From the NCBI GenBank assembly GCA_022446965.1, contig JAKVBV010000008.1, positions 1 through 64,000 on the forward strand: a stretch of 64,000 nucleotides of DNA, read 5' to 3'. A program made the position numbers and the translations under genes. Shown here piece after piece: positions 1,324 through 8,749 of this stretch (positions are counted from its first letter, which is position 1; each line of letters opens with the position of its first letter). Source of the DNA: Phycisphaerales bacterium (lineage in GTDB: Bacteria; Planctomycetota; Phycisphaerae; Phycisphaerales; SM1A02). The notes beneath the pieces are model-generated. The model saw only the letters and a list, made by a program, of their open reading frames with translations. It searched no databases and had not been told where the DNA came from.

Positions 1324-1397
<74 letters not shown>

Positions 1398-2602: not shown

Positions 2603-3790
2603 TTAGAAGAAGAAGATCTCGGTGATCACCAGGCCGATGACCGGCACGATGAGGAAGACGGTGGCCAGGAAGATGAATGCGTGCTTGCGCTTCGTCGCGG
2701 CCAATGAGGACAACCACTTGGAAATTCGGATGGGGAACATCCGCAGCGGATACCACACGAGGTTGTCGGTGATGTTAAACAGCACGTGGGCGATGGCCAC
2801 GCTCACGGCCCCTGCCGTGGGGTTGGCCGTGGCGGCCAGCACACCGGTCACGGTGGTGCCGATGTTGCACCCAAGCATGTAGGGGAACACGCGGCGAAGT
2901 TTGACCGCACCGGCCCCGGCGATGGGCACCATCAAGCTGGTGCTCACCGAGCTGGATTGCACGGCGATGGTCGTCCCCAAGCCTGAAAGCCACGCAAAGA
3001 AGTCATTGCGGAAGATGACCTTGCTGAAGAGCCCTTCCATCTTGGAAAGCATGGCACCCTTGAGGTTCTTCACCAGGCCAGCGAGGCCGCAGAACAGCGT
3101 GACCAGACCGACCACGGCAATCAGCACACCACCCAGCACGGCCGCGTCTTCGGTGACCCACCCGATGACGTCCTTGACGGTGTCCACCACCGGTTTGGTG
3201 ATCACCTTCACGGGACTGGTGCCCTTGCCGATTTCACCCAGGCCAATGGCGTTGGTCAGCCACTGGGCGAGGGAGGTCAACACGCCCACACCTGGTTCGC
3301 CATTGGGCCCCTTGCCGGCAAAGACCGAGGTGGCCCATTCCAAGGGGAAGAGCAGCAGCACGGTCATCACGTTGGGGACCGCGTGCATGAGCGCGGTGCA
3401 GTACGACCGGCGGAACTGCCGGCGAATGCGCATGGTGCCCAGCGACACGATGATCCCCGTGATGCTCGTGCCGATGTTGGCGCCCATCACGGCAAACACC
3501 GCCGTGCGCACGCTCATTTCTTGAGCGGCCACGAGCGTGATGATGAGTGATGTGGTGAAGGATGACGATTGCACGATCGACGTCACCAGCACGGCGGCAA
3601 GCAGGGCCACCAGTGGGTTGTCACCCTGCGCGATGGCCGTCTGCAGCCAATCGGTGTTCTTGCCGATCACCTTCAGCCCACCGCCCATGATGTTGATGGC
3701 GCACAAGAAGAAGTAGAGGGCCACCAGCGCCCACATGGCGTGCCACCAGAAGGGGCGTTCCTTGACTGCTTTCAACGATGGCGTGGCCAT
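2603..3790 (-). CDS. Na+/phosphate symporter family protein (Na/Pi-cotransporter II, PF02690 type)
   Basis: A 395-residue inner-membrane protein with about eight or nine hydrophobic segments and the two inverted repeats typical of NptA-like sodium/phosphate carriers. The repeats are marked by NPLVALLAAVLVTSIVQSSS and, in the second half, GLGTTIAVQSSSVSTSLMVP. The QSSS motifs are the substrate-site signatures of the family. The frame is open to 3865, but the ATG at 3790 is preferred. It has a GGGAG site nine bases upstream and starts right before a Lys-rich N-terminus and the first membrane segment. It heads the symporter-phoU-arsC operon and diverges from the sulfatase gene. Confidence 0.87.
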   Translation of the reverse strand: MATPSLKAVKERPFWWHAMWALVALYFFLCAINIMGGGLKVIGKNTDWLQTAIAQGDNPLVALLAAVLVTSIVQSSSFTTSLIITLVAAQEMSVRTAVFAVMGANIGTSITGIIVSLGTMRIRRQFRRSYCTALMHAVPNVMTVLLLFPLEWATSVFAGKGPNGEPGVGVLTSLAQWLTNAIGLGEIGKGTSPVKVITKPVVDTVKDVIGWVTEDAAVLGGVLIAVVGLVTLFCGLAGLVKNLKGAMLSKMEGLFSKVIFRNDFFAWLSGLGTTIAVQSSSVSTSLMVPIAGAGAVKLRRVFPYMLGCNIGTTVTGVLAATANPTAGAVSVAIAHVLFNITDNLVWYPLRMFPIRISKWLSSLAATKRKHAFIFLATVFLIVPVIGLVITEIFFF

Positions 3791-3881
3791 GTCTCTACGC
3801 TCCCAAGCCGCCAGCCGCTCCTGGGCCGGTGGTGATGGCGAGCATGAGACCTGACAGAGGCTCAAGCACGGTTGGCGAAGT

Positions 3882-3897
3882 GTTCAGGTTATGTTCA
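3882..3897. repeat. Direct GTTCA repeat with 11-bp period in a divergent promoter region
   Basis: GTTCA occurs at 3882-3886 and again at 3893-3897, exactly 11 bases apart, between the divergent phosphate-symporter and sulfatase genes. PHO boxes of actinobacteria are built from 11-base units beginning GTTCA, so this is a candidate PhoP/PhoB-type site. Only two short units are seen, so chance is possible. Confidence 0.3.
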
Positions 3898-3972
3898 ATC
3901 CGGCTTCGGAAGATGTGCACACGAGATGTCACTCGAATCCAGCCCCTTATCGTGAAACGACTCGCCTACTCG

Positions 3973-3978
3973 TACACT
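3973..3978 (+). promoter_or_regulatory. -10-like TACACT box, leaderless arrangement
   Basis: TACACT ends six bases before the sulfatase ATG at 3985. A transcript would start on or next to the start codon. No Shine-Dalgarno sequence is present. Confidence 0.55.
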
Positions 3979-3984
3979 TGCCCC

Positions 3985-5508
3985 ATGCTGACCGCCGCCC
4001 TCACGCTTTCACTCGCCGCTGCCGCCCCGCCCAACATCGTGATCGTCATGGTCGATGATCTGGGCTGGCAAGATGTCTCCGTGCCAATGCACAGTGAAAC
4101 AACGCCGTTCAATGAGCAATGGCACACACCTGCCCTCAAACAGCTCGCAGCCCAAGGCACGGTGCTCACCAATGGGTACGCCGCAGCACCGGTGTGCACA
4201 CCCACCCGCGTGAGCTTGATGACTGGACAACTGCCCTGCCGACACAACGCCACCTACTGGACGCTCTACCACGACCGCGACAACTCCAAGAAGCGCCCCC
4301 GCATCGCCGCCCCAGATTGGGCCAAGGAAGGGCTCCAACCAAGCACGCCGACATTGGCCGCTGTGCTCAAGGCTGCCGGCTACCGCACCATCCACTGCGG
4401 CAAGGCCCACTTTGGTGCCCACGGCACTGCGGGCAGCGACCCCACCAGCCTCGGATTCGACGTGAACATCGCCGGCCACGGCTCGGGCGGACCAGCAAGC
4501 TTCTACGGCACGCACAACTTCTCTGCAGCGGGCCGCCGCGCCGCAAACTCCCCCAACGCTGATCCCGGCGGCAAGAGCGTGTGGGACATTCCAGGGCTGG
4601 AGCAGTACCACGGGCAGGACATCTTCCTCACCGACGCGCTGTGCAACGAAGCAATCGCCGCACTGGACCAAGCCGTCGCTGACGACACACCGGTGTTCCT
4701 GCACTTTGCACCATACGCGGTGCATGCACCGATCATGGCGAATCGTGCATTGCTCGATCGATACGACGGCCTGCACCCGACAGAAGCTGCCTACGGCACG
4801 ATGATCGAGTCGGTCGACAATGCACTCGGCCGAATCTTGGAACGCCTCGACCACCACGGAATTGCAGGCAACACGATCGTCGTGTTCACATCGGACAACG
4901 GCGGCCTGAGCGCGCACGCTCGTGGTGGCACGCCAAACACACACAACGCGCCGCTCAAATCCGGGAAAGGGTCAAGCTACGAAGGAGGCACACGAGTGCC
5001 GTGGGTGATTCGCTGGCCGGACGTGACCACCGCTGGCGACCGCATCGACACACCGGTCATCACACAAGATCTGGCGCCCACGCTGGCCCGGGCCGCAGGA
5101 ACTGGCTTCCCTCAAACCCACGCCATCGACGGCGCCGATCTCCGCAGCGTGCTCAACGCCGATGCCGTCCCCGCTCGCCCACTGGTGTGGCATCAACCGC
5201 ATCAATGGGGCGCTAACGGCCCTGGCATCGAGCCGTTCACCGCCATCCGCGACGGCGACTGGAAGCTGCTGCTGTACCACGACGGCCCTCGCGTGGAGCT
5301 GTACAACCTGGCAACCGACATCGGGGAAACCACTGATCTGGCGGCGTCGGAAACCGATCGTGTCACGCACTTGCTCAGGGCACTGCGGCGTGTGGCGGTG
5401 GGCACAGGCCTGCAGATGAGCCTCAACATCGCCTCTGGAGAGCCTGTGGCGATCCCAAGATCCGCCGAGACCGTGCCAGGAAGTCCGGTTGTACCGGCTG
5501 GGGGCTGA
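3985..5508 (+). CDS. Secreted arylsulfatase-type sulfatase (formylglycine family)
   Basis: A 507-residue hydrolase predicted to cleave sulfate esters, probably from polysaccharides, outside the cytoplasm. A short hydrophobic signal sequence ends near residue 14 (LAAAA), followed by the metal-site motif VMVDDLGWQD (D24, D25). The sulfatase signature CTPTR at 71-75 has Cys71 as the residue to be converted to formylglycine. Further family blocks are HCGKAHFG and VVFTSDNGG. The frame is open from 3778, but the ATG at 3985 fits the signal peptide and the TACACT box. The substrate cannot be told from sequence. No maturase gene is in view. Confidence 0.9.
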   Translation: MLTAALTLSLAAAAPPNIVIVMVDDLGWQDVSVPMHSETTPFNEQWHTPALKQLAAQGTVLTNGYAAAPVCTPTRVSLMTGQLPCRHNATYWTLYHDRDNSKKRPRIAAPDWAKEGLQPSTPTLAAVLKAAGYRTIHCGKAHFGAHGTAGSDPTSLGFDVNIAGHGSGGPASFYGTHNFSAAGRRAANSPNADPGGKSVWDIPGLEQYHGQDIFLTDALCNEAIAALDQAVADDTPVFLHFAPYAVHAPIMANRALLDRYDGLHPTEAAYGTMIESVDNALGRILERLDHHGIAGNTIVVFTSDNGGLSAHARGGTPNTHNAPLKSGKGSSYEGGTRVPWVIRWPDVTTAGDRIDTPVITQDLAPTLARAAGTGFPQTHAIDGADLRSVLNADAVPARPLVWHQPHQWGANGPGIEPFTAIRDGDWKLLLYHDGPRVELYNLATDIGETTDLAASETDRVTHLLRALRRVAVGTGLQMSLNIASGEPVAIPRSAETVPGSPVVPAGG

Positions 5509-5536
5509 ATCGCTCAAAATTCCTACAGACAGAGCC

Positions 5537-5564
5537 TTGCATCTGCTGGACGAGCGGTCATGAT
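5537..5564 (+). promoter_or_regulatory. Candidate promoter of the 5571-5893 RNA
   Basis: TTGCAT (5537-5542), the same -35 as the tRNA-Asp promoter, a 16-base spacer, then CATGAT (5559-5564, four of six matches to TATAAT). This would start a transcript near 5571. The -10 is weak. Confidence 0.3.
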
Positions 5565-5570
5565 CGAGGT

Positions 5571-5893
5571 GACCCGGGCCGTGACCACGGCCGTCCGCCC
5601 CGGCAGGCTGAGCACTCGTGTTCAGCTGGGCTCCGTGGAAGGACGCCGGTTGCCACCAGTCGATCCAACATCGCTCCTTGTGGGTGGATCGCTGGCCCGG
5701 GCAACGACAAGCAACGGGATCTCGACACCTGAGAGCCGTCGAGGATCGCAAGATCAGCACCGCATCACGCTGGAGACGTGAGCCCGTGCATCCCGCACCA
5801 AGAGAGGCGCACGCATCACCCCAGCGTGCACTACGGCGGTGGAGAGAAGGACCCAAGACGCTCGGCTGATGCAGCCGAGCGTTGCGGTTTTTT
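5571..5893 (+). ncRNA. Candidate structured RNA or long structured 3' UTR of the sulfatase mRNA
   Basis: The 397-base gap between the convergent sulfatase and polA genes has no convincing protein frame but many hairpins on the plus strand. They are GGCCGT/ACGGCC at 5577-5592 with loop GACC; an 11-bp stem with a one-base bulge at 5656-5667/5685-5695; CTCGAC/GTCGAG at 5721-5743; GATC-GCAA-GATC with a GNRA loop at 5744-5755; and CACGCTGG/CCAGCGTG (8 bp) closing 5766-5828. A strong terminator follows. I looked for the conserved cores of RNase P RNA, tmRNA and SRP RNA and saw none. It could be a new RNA, 6S-like RNA or a processed 3' UTR. The 5' end is a guess from the weak promoter. Confidence 0.4.
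5859..5893 (+). terminator. Rho-independent terminator
   Basis: A nine-base perfect stem CGCTCGGCT/AGCCGAGCG (5859-5867/5873-5881) with a five-base loop is followed by TTGCGG and a run of six T on the plus strand. On the minus strand the hairpin is not followed by T, so it serves the plus-strand transcript. Confidence 0.85.
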
Positions 5894-5905
5894 GACTGTG
5901 CCAAT

Positions 5906-8749
5906 TCACTTGGCGTCGTACCAATCTTGCGACACGGCGGCATCGACCACCAGCGGTACACGAAGATCCATCGCACCTTCCATGCTCGAGACAAGCAGAT
6001 CACGAGCAGCATCAGCCACCGCTTCTGGCACCTCGATCACGAGTTCGTCGTGCACCTGCAACACAAGCCGCGCCTCGGCATGGAGATCGGGCAGACGTGC
6101 ATGCAGGTTCAGCATGGCCAGTTTGATGAGATCAGCGGCCGACCCCTGCACCACGGAGTTGATCGCATGCCGTTCGGCAAGCGCACGCTCCTGACCATTG
6201 GAAGAGTCAATCGTGGGAATCTCACGGCGGCGGCCGGCCATGGTTTCCACGAAGCCGGTGTCTTGCGCCTGTGCCACACAGTCATCAAGAAACCGCTCGA
6301 TGCCAGGGAAACGCGCCTTGTAGTCACCGATGATCTGGCTCGCCCGCGCCACGCTGGTGCCTTCACCCAACCGACGCGACAGACCGAACGGCGTGATCCC
6401 GTACACGATGCCGAAGTTCACCATCTTGGCGGCTCCCCGCTGCTCGCTCGTCACGGCATCGGGCGATACACCAAAGACCTCGGCTGCGACCGCCCGGTGA
6501 ATGTCCTCGCCCGCTTCGAATGCGGTGATCAAGCCCTTGTCTTGCGACAGATGAGCCAACACCCGAAGCTCGACCTGCGAGTAATCAGCCGTCACCAGCA
6601 CGCAGCCCTCACGAGCGACGAAGGCTTTGCGAATGGCTCGGCCCAGGTCGGTGCGAATGGGGATGTTCTGCAGGTTGGGGTCGCTCGAACTCAGTCGCCC
6701 CGTGGCCGTGGCGATCTGGTTGAAGCGGGTATGCACGCGGCCCGTCTCAGGATTGATGCACGCCTTGAGTGCCACCAGATAGGTGCCCACCAACTTGGCC
6801 AGCTGTCGATACTCCAGCACAAGCCCGGGCAGTGGCGTGGTGACCTCCGGATCGGCGTCGAGCTTCTCGAGTACCTCGACATCGGTGGACGGCCCCGTCT
6901 TGCGACGCTTGATCACGGTCAGTCCAAGCCCGGGCACCTCGTCATCTTCAGCATTGAACAAGGCCGCCGCCAACTGCTTGGGTGAATCTGGATTCAATGG
7001 CCCGGGCGCGGCCTCGGCGATTTCCGCACGCAATGCTTCAAGCCGCCCCACCAGGCGATCACGTTGGCGATCGAGCTCGTCAGGATCCACTCGAACGCCG
7101 GTGAACTCCATGTCGGCGAGCACGGGGACCAGGGGATTCTCGAGATCGTCGAACAACGCACCAAGATTCTGTTCGTCCACCTGCGATCGAAGCGGCTCAA
7201 CCAGGCGCAACGTGATGTCGGCATCTTCCGCCGCATACGGCACGGCCGACTCCAACGCGACGGTGTCAAAGGAGGCCTGGTTCTTGCCCGTACCGATGAG
7301 CGACGTGATCGAAATGCAGTCCAGCCCCAGCAATCCCAGTGCCAGTGCGTCCATGCGGTGGCTCGAACGGGCGCCGTCCGCCACGTACGACATCACCATG
7401 GTGTCGGTGACCGTGCCGATCACTGAGATTCCGGCTCGACGCAACACCTTGAGATCGAACTTGGCGTTGTGTGCCACCATGTGCAGGTCGGGCGACTCAA
7501 GCACCGGCTTGAGAGCGGCAATCACCGTGGCCTCGTCGAGATGGGTTTCAGGTTCAGGCGACCGCACCGGGATGTACCAGCCACGTCCAGGCGTGACAGC
7601 CACGCACACGCCACAGAGTGAATCCTGCATGGGATCCAGACCGGTGGTTTCGGTGTCGATCGCCACCATGTCGGCTTCGACAATGGCGGCGACGACCTCA
7701 GTGAGTGCATCGGCGTCGAGTACCGCGGTGTAGTCGGCACTGGAGTCCGCAGGTCGCACGGTCTTTGCTTCAAGGCCGCCCCACAACGTGCCTGCGTCGG
7801 TGTCATCTCCAGCAGCAGCGGCATCGTCCCCTCCGGCGGTCGGCCCGGCAGCAGCGCGAATCAGTTTCTCCAACTGCGCGGGCGTACGGCGGAAGTCGAG
7901 GGTCTTGAACAGCGTCGATGGTGGCTCGAGTGGGAGATTCGCCAGATCAACAGCGGCATCGTCCCAATCAAAATCGAAGTCGAGATCATCCTTGAGCACC
8001 ACCAGCTCGCGATTGAGCAACAAGCGATCTTGTGCGCCCTCGAGGTTCTCACGGCGCTTGCCCTTGATCTCATCAATGTGCTGGTAGATGCCCTCAATGC
8101 TGCCGTATTGCAGGATCAACTTGGCGGCCGTCTTGGGACCAATCCCGGGCACGCCCGGGATGTTGTCCACGCTATCGCCCATCAAGCACAGCATGTCGAC
8201 CACATGATGCGCCTCCACCCCCTCGGTCTTGAACACATCGGACGGGGTTCGTACCACGTCACGCTGAGGATCGAAGATCTCCACGTGATCACCCACTATC
8301 TGCGTGAGGTCCTTGTCCGCCGAGATCACGCGCACCTGCATGTCTGGTCGAGACTCACGGGCTCGCCTGGCGATCGTCGCGATCACGTCATCGGCCTCGG
8401 CTCCTTCCACGCCCAGCAACGGAATCTGCAGCGCTTCAATCACCTCAAGGCATCGATCCACTTGCGGCCCGAAGTCGTCGGGCGCCTCTTCACGATTGGC
8501 CTTGTAGTCCGGATCGATTCCGCTGCGAAACGTGCCCGTGTCGCCTGACACATCAAGCGCCACGGCCAAGTGCGTGGGCGAACCGGCTTCGAGCAGGTTC
8601 ATGAGGATGTCGCAGAAGCCCGCGACCATTTTGGTGGGTTCGCGCGTCACGCTTGATGTCGAATACGGCCGACGCGCGTAGTACGCGCGAAAGAACTGCG
8701 AGTAGCCGTCGATCAGATAGAGCACTTCGCCGTCGGGCACGACGGTCAC
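5906..8749 (-). CDS. polA: DNA polymerase I with 5'-3' and 3'-5' exonuclease domains
   Basis: A 947-residue repair and Okazaki-processing polymerase with three domains in order. The 5' nuclease (1 to about 290) shows EADDVIATIA, SADKD and GDSVDNIPGVPGIGPKTA. An acidic Ala/Gly linker lies near 301-330. The proofreading exonuclease shows DTETTG at 365-370 and HNAKFDLKVL, and appears active. The polymerase domain shows DYSQVELRVLAHLSQD, KMVNFGIVYG and QVHDELVIEVP. The length is standard for a full PolA. The start is a GTG overlapping the stop of the glmU-like gene by four bases, so it is the last gene of the mreBCD-glmU-like-polA run. Its end faces the structured-RNA region. Confidence 0.97.
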   Translation of the reverse strand: MTVVPDGEVLYLIDGYSQFFRAYYARRPYSTSSVTREPTKMVAGFCDILMNLLEAGSPTHLAVALDVSGDTGTFRSGIDPDYKANREEAPDDFGPQVDRCLEVIEALQIPLLGVEGAEADDVIATIARRARESRPDMQVRVISADKDLTQIVGDHVEIFDPQRDVVRTPSDVFKTEGVEAHHVVDMLCLMGDSVDNIPGVPGIGPKTAAKLILQYGSIEGIYQHIDEIKGKRRENLEGAQDRLLLNRELVVLKDDLDFDFDWDDAAVDLANLPLEPPSTLFKTLDFRRTPAQLEKLIRAAAGPTAGGDDAAAAGDDTDAGTLWGGLEAKTVRPADSSADYTAVLDADALTEVVAAIVEADMVAIDTETTGLDPMQDSLCGVCVAVTPGRGWYIPVRSPEPETHLDEATVIAALKPVLESPDLHMVAHNAKFDLKVLRRAGISVIGTVTDTMVMSYVADGARSSHRMDALALGLLGLDCISITSLIGTGKNQASFDTVALESAVPYAAEDADITLRLVEPLRSQVDEQNLGALFDDLENPLVPVLADMEFTGVRVDPDELDRQRDRLVGRLEALRAEIAEAAPGPLNPDSPKQLAAALFNAEDDEVPGLGLTVIKRRKTGPSTDVEVLEKLDADPEVTTPLPGLVLEYRQLAKLVGTYLVALKACINPETGRVHTRFNQIATATGRLSSSDPNLQNIPIRTDLGRAIRKAFVAREGCVLVTADYSQVELRVLAHLSQDKGLITAFEAGEDIHRAVAAEVFGVSPDAVTSEQRGAAKMVNFGIVYGITPFGLSRRLGEGTSVARASQIIGDYKARFPGIERFLDDCVAQAQDTGFVETMAGRRREIPTIDSSNGQERALAERHAINSVVQGSAADLIKLAMLNLHARLPDLHAEARLVLQVHDELVIEVPEAVADAARDLLVSSMEGAMDLRVPLVVDAAVSQDWYDAK

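Follow-up and report, generated by a model that had tools for sequence, protein, structure and literature searches.

A polA-side structured small RNA of Phycisphaerales and its predicted pairing with a widespread second, putative small RNA

The studied window, a 64,000-nt stretch of a Phycisphaerales bacterium genome (G000; 2.24 Mb, 112 contigs), contains a 397-base gap (5509-5905) between a sulfatase gene, whose stop is at 5508, and the minus-strand polA gene, whose stop is at 5906. As judged from comparison with related genomes, this gap encodes an independent structured RNA gene, here named RNA1, with its own promoter and intrinsic terminator. Comparative data define the RNA1 family, a second, putative small RNA family (RNA2) and a complementarity between the two in all ten genomes that carry RNA1, which makes RNA1 a candidate sponge of RNA2. 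The presence of a structured RNA in the gap had been proposed in an earlier note on this DNA, and is borne out by homologues at the same place and by the conservation of the promoter, loops and terminator.

The RNA1 gene and its boundaries

The features of the RNA1 locus are collected in Table 1. The 5′ end of RNA1 was set from the promoter (approximately ±3 nt), and the 3′ end was taken from the terminator.

Table 1. Features of the RNA1 locus in the window
Feature	Positions	Strand	Remarks
Sulfatase gene (PF00884)	3778-5508	+	Upstream neighbour of RNA1
RNA1 -35 element TTGCAT	5537-5542	+	G000, G001 and G002 each have one TTGCATC-N13-GTCAT; spacing constant
RNA1 -10 element CATGAT	5559-5564	+	Kept in all RNA1-bearing genomes
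RNA1, predicted structured small RNA	5569-5893	+	Homologues; covariance models R1 and R2
Hairpin GGCCGU-GACC-ACGGCC	5577-5592	+	Identical in G001; GGAGUGCACUCC instead in G002
5′ domain GUCCGCCC ... GGGCUCCGYGGAAGGAC	5593-5644	+	Encloses a species-variable hairpin; absent in G002
Arm GUUGCC (5649-5654) / GGCAAC (5700-5705)	5649-5705	+	Presents the RNA2-complementary loop
Loop GCUCCUUGUGGG	5673-5684	+	Invariant; exact complement of the RNA2 core
3′ multibranch domain	5715-5795	+	Closed by CGGGAU (5715-5720) / AUCCCG (5790-5795)
Hairpin CUCGAC-ACCUGAGAGCC-GUCGAG	5721-5743	+	Conserved UGAGA loop
GNRA-capped hairpin GAUC-GCAA-GAUC	5744-5755	+	Compared with counterparts in relatives
Hairpin UCACG-CUGGAGA-CGUGA	5765-5781	+	GGAGA loop kept; stem wholly rewritten in G001 and G002
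Hairpin GCACGC-AUCACCCCA-GCGUGC	5809-5829	+	GCACAGC/GCUGUGC in G002
Purine-rich single strand GGUGGAGAGAAGGACC	5838-5853	+	Precedes the terminator; common to short g35-type RNA1
RNA1 intrinsic terminator	5857-5893	+	Terminator scan; retained in relatives with an altered stem
polA (PF00476 and exonuclease domains)	5906-8749	-	Convergent neighbour; constant landmark of the RNA1 locus

The promoter named in the earlier note is present, with a 16-nt spacer between its two elements, and is conserved in relatives. It takes the form CTTGCATC-N13-GTCATKGTG (also written TTGCATC-N13-GTCATKGT), with small departures, in front of both the long and the short forms of RNA1 described below. The distance between the -35 and -10 elements is identical in the members of the window's genus and in the homologues of the g35 type, the letters of the spacer vary, and the -10 element reads CATTGT or CATGGT in relatives. 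The promoter matches the sigma-70 consensus at 8 of 12 positions only, and in a simple promoter scan of the window it fell below threshold and was unreported. The strong intrinsic terminator with a T6 tail was also recovered, its measured stem comprising 12 pairs (5857-5883) followed by GCGGTTTTTT; terminator-like matches numbered 3, compared with 0.3 expected in shuffles.

In the window's genus RNA1 lies downstream of the sulfatase gene on the same strand, as would be expected if its structure were part of a decaying sulfatase-mRNA 3′ UTR; a processed 3′ UTR was also among the readings offered in the earlier note. We give this explanation almost no credence, since RNA1 has a conserved promoter of its own with unvarying spacing and, in g35 (the second genus), the upstream gene encodes a gamma-glutamyltranspeptidase on the opposite strand and is transcribed away from RNA1, which therefore cannot be the 3′ UTR of that gene.

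Distribution and conserved structure of RNA1

Homologues of RNA1 were found at the same locus in nine other genomes (10 genomes in all), and all members are convergent to the 3′ end of polA. The long form, approximately 270-295 nt, is present at the same place in both other genomes of the window's genus, G001 and G002, the RNA1 region of the former being 71% identical to that of the window. The short form, approximately 155 nt, occurs in six g35 genomes and in one genome labelled g5 (G130), where the DNA at the contig edge identified the end of polA. The homologues in G002 and in the g35 genome G036 were found by reading downstream of polA in relatives, whereas the five further g35 members and G130 came from a BLAST search of 181 family genomes with the G036 RNA1. 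The named records with short RNA1 are Phycisphaerales or Planctomycetota MAGs. A short-form pattern search of contigs gave nine matches, two of which (L108 and L112) are due to chance.

Two covariance models were used, R1 for the long form and R2 built from the short forms only. R2 detects the RNA1 of the window genome-wide at an E-value of 7e-5, and high R1 scores are confined to the three members of the genus. A search of 400 genomes of the order gave no further convincing member, no RNA1 match was found in the plasmids searched, and the viral contigs searched had no match to the short-form motif. Weak R1 matches of 16-26 bits elsewhere in the family were taken as chance, as were the R2 matches in G097 and G164, which are confined to the terminator; short BLAST matches at query positions 55-115 in other genomes proved to be coding or chance at the inspected loci. 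Across the genomes compared, RNA1 thus occurs in two or three genera only, all within one family. The Rfam scan suggested in the earlier note gave nothing credible for the window RNA1 or for two short-form loci in Rfam 15, at either gathering or relaxed thresholds; matches to xerDC and SNORD48 were dropped as below threshold and in the wrong setting. With no family above the gathering threshold, RNA1 is not recognised as RNase P RNA, tmRNA or SRP RNA, in agreement with the earlier note, whose suggestion of an undescribed lineage-specific RNA also holds. Its alternative of a divergent 6S RNA is disfavoured by the lack of an Rfam 6S match and by the multi-hairpin layout. The sole Rfam match at threshold within the 64-kb window is a tRNA gene at 1324-1397 (+).

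Comparison of relatives, which the earlier note had named as a check, revealed compensating stem changes in both forms of RNA1. In the long-form helices, combining the 5′ arm from one species with the 3′ arm from a second mostly gives no pairing. The arm around CUCCUUGUGGG has changed in step in three species (GUUGCC/GGCAAC, GCCGAGC/GCUCGGC and UUGCUG/CAGCAA), and its cross-species combinations do not pair. This arm is the nearest counterpart of the 8-bp stem that was said to close a 63-base domain, a stem not identified exactly as described. Conservation in the long form is highest in the loop GCUCCUUGUGGG, which has remained unchanged among the genus members while its supporting stem has been rewritten. 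The previously described stem CCAGUCGAUCC/GGAUCGCUGG is present, starting at 5656, as is the GNRA-capped stem, whose counterparts are UGAUC-UGAA-GAUCA in G001 and UGUC-AGC-GACA in G002. The closing helix of the 3′ domain covaries with GGAAC/GUUCC of G002, the stems below the GGAGA loop read UCACG/CGUGA, GGAACCA/UGGUUCC and AGAGUCA/UGACUCU in the three long forms, and the hairpin at 5809-5829 gains one base pair in G002, inserted on both sides.

The folding energy of the window sequence has a z-score of -3.3 when the terminator is included and -1.7 when it is left out, so that the single sequence is weak evidence; the corresponding values for relatives are -5.2 (G002) and -3.3 (G001). When the seven short forms are aligned, pairing holds in 92% of cells and 7 pairs have changed on both sides; the covariation score was reached by none of 500 shuffles and is destroyed by sliding the partner. 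No reading frame through RNA1 is conserved across the three genus members, the indels are not in threes, and the best two-way frame match reaches 47% amino-acid identity against 71% identity of the underlying DNA. Within the short RNA1 (L070-L076, downstream of polA in g35 and G130), the block GGCUCCUGCGGAGGGGAGAA is also invariant, and three stretches rich in purines, GGAAGAGAAGAG, GAAGGAGAGA and GGGGAGAAGGA, are conserved.

The conserved loops raise the question of CsrA binding. A GGAGA(G) hairpin loop is kept in both RNA1 forms while its stem covaries, and CsrA is encoded in all 16 genomes searched, with two copies in most; in GGA-bearing hairpin loops and a CsrA-containing host RNA1 resembles CsrB, CsrC, RsmY and RsmZ, and it might titrate CsrA through GGA loop motifs as they do. 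We nonetheless regard such a function as very unlikely: GGA triplets are no more frequent in RNA1 than in shuffles and so are not enriched, several of the conserved purine stretches are GAGAG rather than GGA, one csrA lies beside fliW, the CUCCUUGUGGG loop is left unexplained, and no Rfam match links RNA1 to these RNAs. In other bacteria, the FliW protein is known to antagonise CsrA. In G000, fliW is located directly upstream of csrA (L117 8207-8924), and the second csrA is elsewhere (L118 7968-8180).

RNA2 and its complementarity to RNA1

RNA2 was found by searching the three genomes of the genus for the complement of GCUCCUUGUGGG. Among the exact 11-mer sites obtained, one is orthologous in G000, G001 and G002; it reads CCCCCCCACAAGGAGCUCG, directly precedes a second terminator and is located between the genes for uracil-DNA glycosylase (PF03167) and D-Tyr-tRNA deacylase (PF02580). 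In G000 this RNA2 lies outside the window, at C31:6052-6127 on the minus strand (locus L150); the core of RNA2 reads CCCCCCCACAAGGAGCYYG. A model of the element (R3) identified RNA2 in 106 of the 181 family genomes, representing 34 of 45 genera, nearly always as a single copy; two tandem copies approximately 60 nt apart were observed in G011 (L210 501-580, 643-713). The core is C-rich, contains AAGGAG and carries the Shine-Dalgarno-like ACAAGGAG, and its consensus CCCAC[AG]AGGAGCYYG is intact in 57 of the 68 sequences read. The terminator stem of RNA2 demonstrates strong covariation in an alignment fitted to the model. RNA2, with a predicted length of approximately 70-130 nt, gave no Rfam match.

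Upstream of RNA2, the element GGAACY-N15-17-CGAA, also written GGAACC-N16-CGAA, occurs in 36 of 68 loci versus 0.2 expected. The -35 box of RpoE-type ECF factors is GGAACTT (PMC8103513), and given the resemblance of the GGAAC-type element to this box, RNA2 is probably an ECF-sigma-driven sRNA where the promoter is recognisable. It is similar to the E. coli sigma-E sRNAs MicA, RybB and MicL (PMC8103513) in being short, terminator-ended and preceded by a GGAAC-type ECF-like promoter, and differs from them in its core of a C-run with ACAAGGAG and in having no Rfam match. Since RNA2 is family-wide and RNA1 is present in only two or three genera, the regulator RNA2 is probably the older of the two, with RNA1 as a later partner.

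The number of contiguous Watson-Crick pairs between RNA1 and the RNA2 core is 12 in the window genome, 13 in G001 and 14 in G002, and when each of the three RNA1s was shuffled 1000 times, no run of 12-14 nt arose. In the window pair, the base beside the 12-mer (C in RNA1, U in RNA2) is unpaired. The RNA1 of g35 meets the same RNA2 core with a different invariant block, CAGGCUCCUGCGGAGGGG, in an interrupted duplex. For the short forms, the duplex energy has a shuffle P of at most 0.005 in six of the seven genomes, G130 (labelled g5) fitting RNA2 more weakly (P of 0.028), and short-form RNA1 reaches -31.5 kcal/mol with the RNA2 of its own genus compared with -24.8 to -26.9 kcal/mol with others. 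The test was restricted to the RNA2 core because long GC-rich RNAs always find partners, which makes full-length duplex energies uninformative. When sites in the 64-kb window are ordered by pairing energy to the RNA2 core, that of RNA1 comes third, energy alone not being specific because the C-rich core pairs well with many G-rich sites. Within a genus the paired bases do not vary, which leaves a single contrast between genera as intermolecular covariation, and the ten genomes with both RNAs are not independent of one another. Conserved complementarity to another sRNA beyond chance, which is expected of a sponge, was thus found, with the caveat of the C-rich core.

The loop GCUCCUUGUGGG also contains an anti-Shine-Dalgarno-like CUCCUU. 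RNA1 might therefore be a trans-acting sRNA that represses mRNAs by pairing of this loop with Shine-Dalgarno AAGGAG sequences, the match to RNA2 arising from the ACAAGGAG stretch of the latter. We consider this unlikely, as the complementarity extends past the Shine-Dalgarno core into UGUGGG/CCCACA, which is invariant in both RNAs within the genus, and of the exact 11-nt complements listed for the three genomes, the RNA2 site alone recurs as an ortholog; few of the other complements precede a possible start codon, and no other complement recurs. Large conserved parts of RNA1 play no role in the RNA2 duplex and the locus always adjoins polA, features that would suit another function (protein-binding, RNA-polymerase-binding or polA-linked) with a coincidental RNA2 match. 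Such a coincidence is quite improbable in our judgement, given the shuffle results for the three long forms and the fit of a second, different block to the same RNA2 core in the sister clade.

Two further features of the RNA1 loci touch on RNA2. The first purine-rich stretch of the short RNA1 could pair with the RNA2 U-tail. In G002 (L012), approximately six near-identical TTGCCCCCCGTTC repeats occupy the region between the RNA1 terminator (approximately 1398) and polA, and their C-runs resemble the RNA2 core.

Proposed mechanism and comparison with known systems

The earlier note put forward no function for the RNA. We hold, with modest confidence, that RNA1 acts as a sponge (anti-sRNA) of RNA2. 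RNA1 would be transcribed alone from its housekeeping-type promoter and ended by its own terminator, and its loop would base-pair with the single-stranded, C-rich, AAGGAG-containing core of RNA2, through 12-14 contiguous pairs in the window's genus and an interrupted duplex in the second genus. Such pairing would block the RNA2 core and/or lead to degradation of RNA2, and RNA1 would thereby set a threshold on the RNA2/ECF response. We infer that both RNAs are made and pair in the cell and that RNA2 regulates mRNAs; the assignment of RNA1 as the antagonist and RNA2 as the regulator is suggested by the much wider distribution of RNA2. A search of 16 family genomes detected no Hfq, and the mechanism would therefore need to work without it. 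More tentatively, and with confidence somewhat short of even, we propose that the family-wide, ECF-driven sRNA and a later-arising polA-side sponge form an Hfq-independent circuit in Planctomycetota, in which the two clades would use different RNA1 blocks to contact a common RNA2 core. The UGAGA, GGAGA and GAGAGAGG elements of RNA1 are conserved and not explained by RNA2, and they may point to further partners of RNA1.

Structured sRNAs that sponge other sRNAs are known from other phyla, and the comparison set for RNA1 includes RbsZ and 3′ETS-leuZ, which act on RybB, SroC and AgvB, which act on GcvB, and ChiZ (PMC8383071). In E. coli, RbsZ and 3′ETS-leuZ neutralise the sigma-E-dependent RybB (PMC8383071; PMC8103513). 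Like these sponges, RNA1 bears a segment complementary to the core of a second, putative small RNA, and some of them also have their own promoters (PMC8383071). Unlike them, RNA1 is long (270-325 nt, or approximately 155 nt), highly structured and alone beside polA, belongs to Planctomycetota of a family with no Hfq detected in the 16 genomes searched, and has no sequence relation in Rfam. The RNA1 and RNA2 families, their setting and the pair itself are new, and no description of either RNA surfaced in literature searches.

A second small RNA gene with a polA neighbour is that of Spot 42 RNA (spf), which adjoins polA in E. coli in the same orientation as polA. RNA1 resembles it in lying immediately beside polA and differs in being convergent to polA and in having no Rfam match; the likeness is likely a coincidence.

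Descriptions of regulatory RNAs in Planctomycetota are few; across the whole PVC group, a 2022 survey listed 8 distinct annotated sRNA families, versus 345 for Proteobacteria (PMC9029176). RNA1 and RNA2 add two testable families, one of them nearly family-wide, and for bacteria in which the search detected no Hfq they give a predicted RNA-RNA contact resolved to single base pairs. If true, the model would place a sponge architecture outside the Hfq world and provide a handle on an ECF sigma regulon.
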